Shown: positions 1,263 to 40,052 of the stretch, in pieces
Position numbering within the stretch: position 1 is the stretch's first letter
Layout of the letters: each line of letters begins with the position of its first letter
DNA from: Collinsella aerofaciens
GTDB taxonomy: Bacteria > Actinomycetota > Coriobacteriia > Coriobacteriales > Coriobacteriaceae
Length of the DNA: 64,000 nucleotides
NCBI RefSeq assembly: GCF_018785265.1
Contig: NZ_WQPK01000047.1
Span: 62,001 to 126,000, forward strand
Direction: 5' to 3'
Notes under the pieces: generated by a model
What the model was told of the DNA's origin: nothing
Database searches by the model: none
The model's input: the letters and a program-made list of their open reading frames with translations, nothing else
Made by a program: the position numbers and the translations under genes

Positions 1263-1523
1263 ACGAAATGCCGACCGAATACCCCAAAAAATCGACCGTA
1301 TGCCGAATTAGAAGTTCATTTTTTGCGGTAAAAACGGTATATGCAAAAACTTTACCAACCGTTCTAACCGCTGCTATCTGGGCGATATTTCAGTTTGATG
1401 ATGCACCGAAGCAAAAACGTTTTATCAATGTTGAGCGTCACACGGTCTGCATCGTTGCACTCGAGCCGTGTTTCCAATTGGAATGTTTTGGCTAGACGCG
1501 CCGCTTTGGGGTACCATAGCCCC

Positions 1524-1635
1524 ACTATCAACTGCCGCTCAGCACGGCAGCCTTGATGAGCCCTTGCCCTTCTCCTGGGAATTATGATCGGGCATCAATC
1601 TGCTGAGTGGCCCGAATCCCAGGAGGGGACTCTAT
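1524..1635 (+). promoter_or_regulatory. Structured 5' leader that sequesters the ATPase ribosome site
   Basis: Two hairpins are visible. The first is CTGCCG (1532-1537) with CGGCAG (1545-1550). The second is long: CTCCTGGGA (1572-1580) pairs perfectly with TCCCAGGAG (1617-1625), and inside it TCGGGC (1588-1593) pairs with GCCCGA (1610-1615). The right arm of the outer stem contains the AGGAGG ribosome site at 1621-1626, so the folded RNA should block translation. An alternative pairing would be needed to open it. This resembles a translation-control leader, but I could not match it to a known riboswitch class. Confidence 0.55.
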
Positions 1636-4317
1636 ATGCAAAAGGAATACCTGTCCGCCGCGGCGGAGGTGCTCAGCGACCAAGGTGTCGATGAGAACCT
1701 CGGCCTGAGCAACGACGAGGCGTCGTCGCGCCTCGCCAAGACAGGCCCTAACAAGCTCGAGGAAGCCGAGAAGACCCCGTTGTGGAAGCGCTTCTTTGAG
1801 CAGATGGCCGACCCCATGGTCATCATGCTGATCGTTGCCGCCGTCATCAGCGCGCTCACGGGCATGGTCAAGGGCGAGGCGGACTTTGCCGATGTCGCCA
1901 TCATCATGTTCGTCGTTATCGTCAACTCGGTGCTGGGCGTGGTCCAGGAGGCTAAAAGCGAGGAGGCCCTCGAGGCCCTGCAGGAGATGAGCGCGGCGCA
2001 GTCCAAGGTGCTGCGCGACGGCAAGCTCGTGCACCTGCCGAGCGCCGAGCTCGTGCCCGGCGATGTGATCATGCTCGAGGCGGGCGACTCCGTCCCGGCC
2101 GACTGCCGTGTGCTCGAGAGCGCCACGATGAAGATCGAGGAGGCCGCCCTTACCGGCGAGTCCGTGCCCGTCGAGAAGCATGCCAACGTGATCGAGCTCG
2201 CCGCCGGCACCGACGACGTGCCGCTCGGCGACCGCAAGAACATGTGCTACATGGGCTCCACCGTGGTGTACGGCCGTGGCCGTGCCGTCGTGGTCGGCAC
2301 CGGCATGAACACCGAGATGGGTAAGATCGCCGGCGCTCTGGCCGAGGCCAAGGAAGAGCTCACGCCGCTGCAGGTGAAGCTTGCCGAGCTCAGCCGCATC
2401 CTCACCATCATGGTTATCGTCATCTGCGTCGTCATCTTTGGCGTCGACATCATCCGCCACGGCGTGGGCAACGTCCTCACTGACCCGACAGCCTTGCTCG
2501 ATACCTTTATGGTTGCCGTCTCGCTCGCCGTCGCTGCCATCCCCGAGGGCCTGGTCGCCGTCGTGACCATCGTGCTGTCGCTTGGCGTGACCAAGATGGC
2601 CAAGCGCCAGGCAATCATCCGCAAGCTCTCTGCCGTCGAGACCCTTGGCTGCACGCAGACCATCTGCTCGGACAAGACCGGTACCCTTACCCAAAACAAG
2701 ATGACCGTCGTCAAGCACGAGCTCGCTGCGCCTAAGGAGAAGTTCCTGGCCGGCATGGCGCTGTGCTCCGACGCCCAGTGGGACGAGGAGCTGGGCGAGG
2801 CCGTGGGTGAGCCGACCGAGTGCGCGCTCGTCAACGATGCCGGCAAGGCTGGTCTCACTGGCCTGACTGCCGAGCACCCGCGTGTGGGTGAGGCCCCGTT
2901 CGACTCGGGCCGCAAGATGATGTCCGTGGTCGTCGAGACCCTGGACGGCGAGTACGAGCAGTACACCAAGGGCGCGCCCGACGTGGTGATCGGCCTGTGC
3001 ACCCATATCTACGACGGCGACAGGGTCGTTCCGCTGACCGAGGAGCGTCGTGCCGAGCTCGTGGCCGCCAACAAGGCCATGGCCGACGAGGCCCTGCGCG
3101 TGCTGGCGCTGGCAAGCCGCACCTACACCGAGGTTCCGAGCGACTGCAGCCCCGCTGCGCTCGAGCACGACCTGGTCTTCTGCGGCCTGTCCGGCATGAT
3201 CGACCCGGTCCGCCCCGAGGTCGCCGACGCCATCCGCGAGGCCCACAACGCCGGCATCCGCACTGTCATGATTACGGGCGACCACATCGACACCGCCGTG
3301 GCCATCGCCAAGCAGCTGAGCATTGTCGCCGATCGCAGCCAGGCTATCACCGGTGCCGACCTCGATTGCATGAGCGACGAGGAACTCGACGCACACATCG
3401 AGGATTACGGCGTGTACGCCCGCGTCCAGCCTGAGCACAAGACCCGCATCGTCGAGGCATGGAAGTCACGCGACCAGATCGTGGCCATGACGGGCGACGG
3501 CGTCAACGACGCCCCGTCCATCAAACGCGCCGACATCGGCGTGGGCATGGGCATCACCGGTACCGACGTCACCAAGAACGTCGCCGACATGGTACTTGCC
3601 GACGACAACTTCGCCACCATCATCGGTGCCTGCGAAGAGGGGCGCCGCATCTACGACAACATCCGCAAGGTCATCCAGTTCCTGCTTTCGGCCAACCTTG
3701 CCGAGGTGTTCTCGGTGTTTATCGCCACGCTCATCGGCTTTACCATCTTTCAGCCGGTGCAGCTGCTGTGGGTGAACCTGGTCACCGACTGCTTCCCCGC
3801 GCTCGCGCTGGGCATGGAGGATGCCGAGGGCGACATCATGAAGCGCAAGCCGCGCAACGCCAAGGACGGCGTCTTTGCCGGACATATGGGTCTGGACTGC
3901 GTGGTCCAGGGCCTGATCATCACCGTGCTGGTGCTGGCGAGCTTCTTTGTGGGCGTGTACTTTGACATGGGCTACATCCACATCGCCGATATGATCGCCG
4001 GCAATGCCGACGAGGAAGGCGTGATGATGGCGTTCATCACGCTCAACATGGTCGAGATCTTCCACTGCTTCAATATGCGCAGCCGTCGTGCGTCGCTGTT
4101 TAGCATGAAGAAGCAGAACAAGTGGCTGTGGGCATCTGCCGCGCTGGCGCTGGTACTGACGGTTATCGTGACCGTTCAGCCGACGCTTGCCGAGATGTTC
4201 TTTGGCCCCGTGACGCTTGAGCTCAAGGGCGTTATCGCCGCCCTGGGCCTTGCTTTCCTGATCATTCCGTTGATGGAGATCTACAAGGCGATCATGCGCG
4301 CTGTGGAGAAGGAGTAA
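1636..4317 (+). CDS. P-type Ca2+-transporting ATPase (P2A type)
   Basis: An 893-residue membrane pump that probably exports Ca2+ using ATP. Visible motifs are LTGES (actuator domain), AIPEGL in helix M4 (P303-E304), SDKTGTLT with the phosphorylated Asp at about residue 346, KGAPD (nucleotide domain), the hinge MTGDGVNDAP (D621), and NLVTD in M6. PEGL in M4 together with NLVTD in M6 is the SERCA/PMR1 pattern rather than a heavy-metal (CPx) pattern. Length is normal for the family. The ATG at 1636 follows an AGGAGG that is buried in a hairpin. The gene stands alone, closed by a strong terminator at 4476-4511. The exact cation is inferred from motifs. Confidence 0.93.
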   Translation: MQKEYLSAAAEVLSDQGVDENLGLSNDEASSRLAKTGPNKLEEAEKTPLWKRFFEQMADPMVIMLIVAAVISALTGMVKGEADFADVAIIMFVVIVNSVLGVVQEAKSEEALEALQEMSAAQSKVLRDGKLVHLPSAELVPGDVIMLEAGDSVPADCRVLESATMKIEEAALTGESVPVEKHANVIELAAGTDDVPLGDRKNMCYMGSTVVYGRGRAVVVGTGMNTEMGKIAGALAEAKEELTPLQVKLAELSRILTIMVIVICVVIFGVDIIRHGVGNVLTDPTALLDTFMVAVSLAVAAIPEGLVAVVTIVLSLGVTKMAKRQAIIRKLSAVETLGCTQTICSDKTGTLTQNKMTVVKHELAAPKEKFLAGMALCSDAQWDEELGEAVGEPTECALVNDAGKAGLTGLTAEHPRVGEAPFDSGRKMMSVVVETLDGEYEQYTKGAPDVVIGLCTHIYDGDRVVPLTEERRAELVAANKAMADEALRVLALASRTYTEVPSDCSPAALEHDLVFCGLSGMIDPVRPEVADAIREAHNAGIRTVMITGDHIDTAVAIAKQLSIVADRSQAITGADLDCMSDEELDAHIEDYGVYARVQPEHKTRIVEAWKSRDQIVAMTGDGVNDAPSIKRADIGVGMGITGTDVTKNVADMVLADDNFATIIGACEEGRRIYDNIRKVIQFLLSANLAEVFSVFIATLIGFTIFQPVQLLWVNLVTDCFPALALGMEDAEGDIMKRKPRNAKDGVFAGHMGLDCVVQGLIITVLVLASFFVGVYFDMGYIHIADMIAGNADEEGVMMAFITLNMVEIFHCFNMRSRRASLFSMKKQNKWLWASAALALVLTVIVTVQPTLAEMFFGPVTLELKGVIAALGLAFLIIPLMEIYKAIMRAVEKE

Positions 4318-4416: not shown

Positions 4417-4475
4417 TGCGGTATCCTTGCTGGCTTTTCTCCCGCGCGGATGAAAAGGGCTAAGGGAAAGTATGT

Positions 4476-4511
4476 GAGCTGGTCGAGCGTTTGCTCGACC
4501 AGCTCTTTTTT
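4476..4511 (+). terminator. Rho-independent terminator after the Ca-ATPase
   Basis: Perfect 13-bp stem (4476-4488 with 4493-4505), 4-base loop GTTT, then six T residues. Confidence 0.93.
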
Positions 4512-4560
4512 GTGGGTAAAATACCTGCTCAGTTGTGATTTGTGGTGCTGGGAGGCGCTT

Positions 4561-39310: not shown

Positions 39311-39387
39311 GCGGCGTTACCTCAGCTGGATAGAGGGTCTGACTACGAATCAGAACGTCATAGGTTCGAATCCTATACGCCGCACCA
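39311..39387 (+). tRNA. tRNA-Arg (ACG), copy 1
   Basis: 77 bases, acceptor GCGGCGT/ACGCCGC, anticodon loop CTACGAA (ACG, read as ICG), T-loop TTCGAAT, CCA encoded. Identical to the two copies downstream. Confidence 0.97.
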
Positions 39388-39741: not shown

Positions 39742-39818
39742 GCGGCGTTACCTCAGCTGGATAGAGGGTCTGACTACGAATCAGAACGTCATAGGTTCGA
39801 ATCCTATACGCCGCACCA
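39742..39818 (+). tRNA. tRNA-Arg (ACG), copy 2
   Basis: 77 bases, identical to copy 1. Followed by a perfect terminator (AAGCTCCCG-GCAA-CGGGAGCTT, 39829-39850) and no inverted T-arm. Confidence 0.97.
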
Positions 39819-39975: not shown

Positions 39976-40052
39976 GCGGCGTTACCTCAGCTGGATAGAG
40001 GGTCTGACTACGAATCAGAACGTCATAGGTTCGAATCCTATACGCCGCACCA
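39976..40052 (+). tRNA. tRNA-Arg (ACG), copy 3
   Basis: 77 bases, identical to copies 1 and 2. Confidence 0.97.

Follow-up and report, generated by a model that had tools for sequence, protein, structure and literature searches.

A Conserved Structured RNA in the Leader of a P-type IIA ATPase Gene of Coriobacteriales is a Strong Orphan Riboswitch Candidate

The leader of a P-type IIA ATPase gene in Collinsella aerofaciens carries a conserved structured RNA at positions 1534-1611 (covariance-model E 1e-24) of the window, the 64,000-nucleotide stretch of DNA analysed here. This RNA is a real, conserved cis-regulatory element, and it is new as far as Rfam 15 and the literature searched show. It is a strong orphan riboswitch candidate, and the mechanism proposed below is likely. 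On balance, we favour a translational ON switch that responds to a ligand and belongs to a family absent from Rfam; we infer the ON sign and the ligand. An earlier sequence-only reading had proposed a sensor-like element hiding the Shine-Dalgarno sequence (SD) of a cation pump, with a local upstream hairpin as a possible part of the sensor. The cis-regulatory part of that proposal is supported and the assignment of the sensor is not: the hairpin over the SD provides only the OFF state of a larger device, and the sensor is likely the conserved core at 1553-1598. If it is indeed a sensor, this RNA could belong to a sensor class not previously seen.

Architecture and covariation of the leader RNA

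The element is built from two helices, P1 (11 bp, long-range) and P3 (5 bp), together with an invariant GCCC-UU-GCCC / GGG-AAUUANNAUC-GGGC core and the P4 hairpin (Table 1). Collinsella leaders were compared after searching 45 genomes with the ATPase N-terminus, with 20 extra loci read in addition to those found automatically. Their common core runs from P3 through a 2-nt bulge, GCCC-UU-GCCC, the P4 loop and GGG-A(A/G)UUANNAUC-GGG(C) to the 3′ strand of P3. This core is invariant or nearly so in a covariance-model alignment of 47 loci, which had not been picked by the core pattern. P3 varies on both strands yet stays paired, as UUGAU/AUCAA, UUGAC/GUCAA, UUGAA/UUCAA or AUGAC/GUCAU. A second type of leader (e.g. 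L040) has no paired P3, and a third (e.g. L030) has no P1.

Table 1. Features of the pump leader and its gene, in window positions
Feature	Position	Strand	Basis or remark
Possible -35 box TTGGCT, 18 nt 5′ of the -10 box	1488..1493	+	Sequence reading; weak consensus, absent from sigma-70 scan output
-10-like box TACCAT, predicted start ~1524	1512..1517	+	Positional conservation of -10-like hexamers
Alternative OFF-fold 5′ hairpin, AUCAACUGCCG / CGGCAG..UUGAU	1527..1557	+	MFE fold; no conservation as local hairpin in other genera
P1 5′ strand GCCGCUCAGCA	1534..1544	+	Partner 1601-1611; two-sided variation in 10/11 pairs across leaders
Linker CGGCAGCC, kept in most type-A leaders	1545..1552	+	Alignments
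P3 5′ strand UUGAU, then GA bulge 1558-1559	1553..1557	+	Covariation with 1594-1598
Invariant GCCCUUGCCC: P3b 5′ strand, UU, P4 5′ strand	1560..1569	+	Invariant or nearly so, covariance-model-based alignment, 47 loci
P4 hairpin CCC-UUCUCCU-GGG; anti-SD in loop and 3′ strand	1567..1579	+	Folding, duplexes, covariation analysis
Anti-SD CUCCUGGGA, OFF-fold partner 1617-1625	1572..1580	+	Folding, duplex analysis
Conserved GGG-AAUUAUGAUC-GGGC: P4 3′ strand, asymmetric internal loop, P3b 3′ strand	1577..1593	+	Covariance-model-based alignment
P3 3′ strand AUCAA	1594..1598	+	Leader comparison, covariation
P1 3′ strand UGCUGAGUGGC	1601..1611	+	Leader comparison, covariation
GCCCGA, OFF-fold inner stem with 1588-1593	1610..1615	+	MFE fold
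Sequestered SD region UCCCAGGAGG	1617..1626	+	Folding, duplex analysis
P-type IIA Ca2+-type ATPase gene, cis target of the element	1636..4317	+	Translation, profile matches, solved relatives

A conserved structured domain backed by covariation was found in the 5′ leader. A set of 37 diverse leaders, selected for the shared linker sequence and not for pairing, was aligned with MAFFT blind to pairing. In this alignment, 93% of the pairs of the full structure are standard, and ten of the eleven P1 pairs vary on both sides. The 90 two-sided compensatory cells compare with 32 ± 5 after shuffling (none of 500 shuffles reaches 90) and with at most 17 when the register is slid by 1 to 3. RNAalifold, run unguided, recovers these helices and marks 11 pairs as covarying. 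In a tree-based null over all column pairs, the top six are all predicted pairs; P3.5 alone is individually significant (E 0.005), and P1.9 has an E value of 0.6. The core and P4 pairs give no covariation support because they are invariant. The covariation test that the sequence-only reading had set for related leaders was thus run, and these leaders do covary in P1 and P3, more weakly under the tree-based null.

It should be mentioned that the window leader contains an AUG at 1583, from which a leader peptide with attenuation could be read. This codon is replaced in homologues by AAUUAAGAUC, AAUUACGAUC or AAUUAUUAUC, and no SD lies ahead of it. The leader peptide was rejected as its AUG is not conserved, and its probability is close to nil.

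Two competing folds and the proposed switch

The SD (AGGAGG, 1621-1626) precedes the ATPase ATG at 1636. Both stems that had been described around it were recovered: the 9-bp perfect stem, in which CUCCUGGGA (1572-1580) pairs with UCCCAGGAG (1617-1625) and which lengthens to ~12 bp in duplex folds, and the inner 6-bp stem between UCGGGC (1588-1593) and GCCCGA (1610-1615). For 1500-1680, the predicted fold exceeded 199 of 200 dinucleotide-preserving shuffles in stability (z -2.6). The local 5′ hairpin, CUGCCG/CGGCAG (1532-1537/1545-1550) lengthened by AUCAA/UUGAU (1527-1531/1553-1557), fares differently as a sensor, since conservation does not extend to it as a local structure and both of its strands are part of the long-range helix P1. 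The earlier reading had missed the competing, mutually exclusive fold of the aptamer. There, 1534-1544, with the 5′ hairpin loop among these bases, forms long-range pairs with 1601-1611.

The 3′ half of P4 doubles as the anti-SD, and the aptamer fold and SD sequestration are therefore mutually exclusive. Across 123 distinct combinations, the duplex between the P4 region and the SD region is almost always strong, with a few weak cases (L039, L107, L108 and L114), and the co-variants CUCCCGGG/CCCGGGAG occur in L034, L084 and L115. Own and foreign P4/SD partners are nearly equal (-21.3 vs -20.5 kcal/mol). Because most P4/SD pairs are identical, this evidence is one of conservation more than of covariation. 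A different platform was seen in L106-L108, where an SD-adjoining GCCCGAUC is complementary to the core strand GAUCGGGC and replaces the P4/SD pairing.

With ligand and tertiary contacts ignored, the OFF fold of the window has an energy of -47.5 kcal/mol and the aptamer-constrained fold -40.6 kcal/mol; the mean gap between the two folds over 77 leaders, calculated with the same omissions, is 5.6 kcal/mol. SD pairing in these 77 leaders amounts to 85% in the MFE fold and 30% once the aptamer fold is imposed as a constraint, and about nine of the leaders are aptamer-like already in the MFE fold. Judged by folding energies only, the expression platform is exclusive with the aptamer fold. The SD is occluded in the ground-state (MFE) fold, as would be expected of an RNA thermometer whose SD hairpin is melted by heat with no ligand involved. 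However, neither the invariant core nor the covarying alternative fold would be required in a thermometer, and this core disfavours the thermosensor that had been suggested earlier; we regard it as very unlikely. Slightly less improbable, but still unlikely, is a binding site for a regulatory protein in place of an aptamer. The conserved internal loop can equally serve a protein; against this, no candidate protein is known, and an SD platform mutually exclusive with the conserved fold would be typical of riboswitches.

Transcription probably starts just before P1. Hexamers resembling a -10 box cluster 40-49 nt 5′ of the core in 98 of 138 leaders, and the start predicted in the window from TACCAT at 1512-1517, ~1524, is ten bases ahead of P1; a sigma-70 consensus scan of the leader returned nothing at the scan threshold. 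A start inside the hairpin had been named as a test of the sequence-only reading, and the predicted start, based on the conserved distance of the -10-like box, falls just upstream of the structure. A transcript beginning there would therefore allow the aptamer to fold before the SD emerges. In predicted folding of RNA prefixes ending at 1612-1620, P1 is formed and the SD is still unblocked. In the proposed ON switch, ligand binding would lock P4 and the GGGC core strand, leave the SD free and allow the pump to be made. When no ligand is bound, the more stable fold, ~7 kcal/mol lower in the window, would cover the SD.

Distribution, the linked pump and candidate ligands

Covariance model R1 found the RNA in 163 of the 400 class genomes sampled, in 33 genera essentially of two families, taken here as the Coriobacteriaceae and Atopobiaceae, usually with one copy per genome. 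Among 397 genomes of the phylum, clear matches were confined to the same two families, and homologues outside the class were rejected, as this sample gave just two chance-level matches there (E 0.02 and 0.07). A core-pattern scan of GTDB species genomes gave at least 80 matches; those listed all belong to Coriobacteriales or to unresolved actinobacterial MAGs, with Collinsella, Olsenella, Atopobium, Lancefieldella, Thermophilibacter, Parafannyhessea, Tractidigestivibacter, Kribbibacterium and uncultured Coriobacteriales among them. Viral contigs had no match to the RNA pattern. The same P-type IIA ATPase lies directly downstream of the RNA in all 131 distinct leaders, a check that included 40 representatives from different genera. 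One genome (G036) has neither the RNA nor a close pump, two (G129 and G134) have the pump at ~68% identity and no recognisable RNA, and three (G316, G105 and G117) have diverged copies. Several genomes, e.g. C. tanakaei An791 (G021), contain two ATPase genes that are each preceded by a separate version of the RNA. It is noted that paired ATPase copies lie near each other in some Collinsella and differ in leader subtype, with or without a paired P3 (L033/L038, L026/L035, L027/L037 and L047/L040).

In NCBIfam, the ATPase is matched best by the models for PMR1-type and SERCA-type Ca2+ pumps, scoring under the curated cut-off of each, and its closest solved structures are those of the bacterial Ca2+-ATPase lmo0841 (LMCA1) of Listeria. 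The protein retains IPEG in M4 and NLVTD in M6, which together form a putative Ca2+ site. At 4475-4512, 3′ of the gene, GAGCUGGUCGAGCG-UUUG-CUCGACCAGCUC followed by a T run reads as an intrinsic terminator-like sequence. Elsewhere in the window, three tRNA genes (39311-39384, 39742-39815 and 39976-40049) lie close together with identical Rfam scores and are possibly duplicates.

The ligand is most likely a divalent cation carried by the pump, and the metal response suggested by the sequence-only reading is plausible. Our first choice, a tentative one, is Ca2+, which is ranked first because of the pump type, the best solved relative being a Ca2+-ATPase, and because mntP in C. aerofaciens and Olsenella has a separate yybP-ykoY-like leader. 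A review counts Ca2+ as a strong candidate ligand for riboswitch classes still to be discovered (PMC10043782). The wider proposal, that this RNA represents the first riboswitch class in nature to sense Ca2+, seems confined to Coriobacteriales and controls Ca2+ export by freeing the SD of a Ca2+-ATPase, is put forward with somewhat more reserve still. If true, it would represent RNA-based calcium homeostasis in bacteria.

Mn2+ is the second choice and a rather unlikely one. The switch would be the same, and a second, unrelated aptamer class would be doing the job of yybP-ykoY on Mn2+/Ca2+ ATPases; this would make it an independently evolved aptamer that replaces yybP-ykoY on related pumps. Other families of the class have ATPases of ~40-50% identity whose leaders contain a yybP-ykoY GGGGAGUAGC element and match RF00080 weakly (L256, E 0.0023; L261, E 0.015; L268, E 0.031; each under the gathering score), and the presence of such leaders before distant relatives of the pump favours Mn2+. 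The same direction is indicated by the absence of RF00080 matches, under strict filters, in the listed Coriobacteriaceae and Atopobiaceae genomes. A precedent is the pneumococcal Mn2+/Ca2+ ATPase gene mgtA, which PMC11434433 describes as controlled by a yybP-ykoY riboswitch. On the other hand, mntP is widespread in Coriobacteriaceae and Atopobiaceae, and in C. aerofaciens and two Olsenella it has its own yybP-ykoY-like leader, which counts against Mn2+. One Collinsella mntP leader (L294, genome G003) matches RF00080 at E 7.5e-4, below the gathering score, and contains GUCAACAUACU; weaker matches were obtained in the mntP leaders of two further genomes (L291 and L292). None of 14 mntP leaders contains the new RNA. 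With a yybP-ykoY-like leader at mntP and the new RNA at the pump, one genus therefore appears to use two leaders for two exporters. As a separate observation, two mntP leaders, L283 from the window's own genome (G000:C43:28800-29400) and L293 (G007), keep a GAGGGAGUAG element and seemingly lack the remaining yybP-ykoY-like aptamer and the terminator seen in L294 of the same genus, perhaps as decayed Mn2+ riboswitches.

A different ion or a metabolite acting on the same switch is less probable again. The RNA is linked to one gene type only, which is in keeping with such a ligand, but this sole target is an ion pump, which points to an ion. Since the gene, the architecture and the expression platform of this orphan candidate have been mapped, its ligand could be identified by in-line probing.

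Comparison with known RNA families

The sequence-only reading had seen no yybP-ykoY, M-box or NiCo pattern in the leader, and the same proved true of every other Rfam family: no relevant family of Rfam 15, RF00080 included, matches the window leader at the gathering score or at E 10. With no covariance-model match, assignment of the leader to an Rfam family was rejected. No description of the motif was found in an incomplete search of the literature, and an earlier description is possible.

M-box (Mg2+) and NiCo are divalent-ion riboswitches tied to ion transport genes. The new RNA also stands at an ion transport gene, but is without an Rfam match to either. Collinsella-1 RNA (RF01700), a candidate structured RNA named from Collinsella, has been classed as non-cis-regulatory (PMC2864571). 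It shares the genus with the new RNA, but has no Rfam match to the pump leader.

The yybP-ykoY family (RF00080) resembles the new RNA in preceding cation exporters, including P-type ATPases, and in raising exporter expression, as reported for pneumococcal mgtA in work cited by PMC11434433. However, the yybP-ykoY elements GGGGAGUAG and GUCAACAUACU, present or similar in the mntP and outgroup ATPase leaders, are absent from the window leader, and the new RNA has another architecture. Compared to translational ON riboswitches with an anti-SD in the aptamer, the new RNA differs in an aptamer core that has no Rfam relative, but it shares with them the mutual exclusion of the aptamer fold and SD sequestration.
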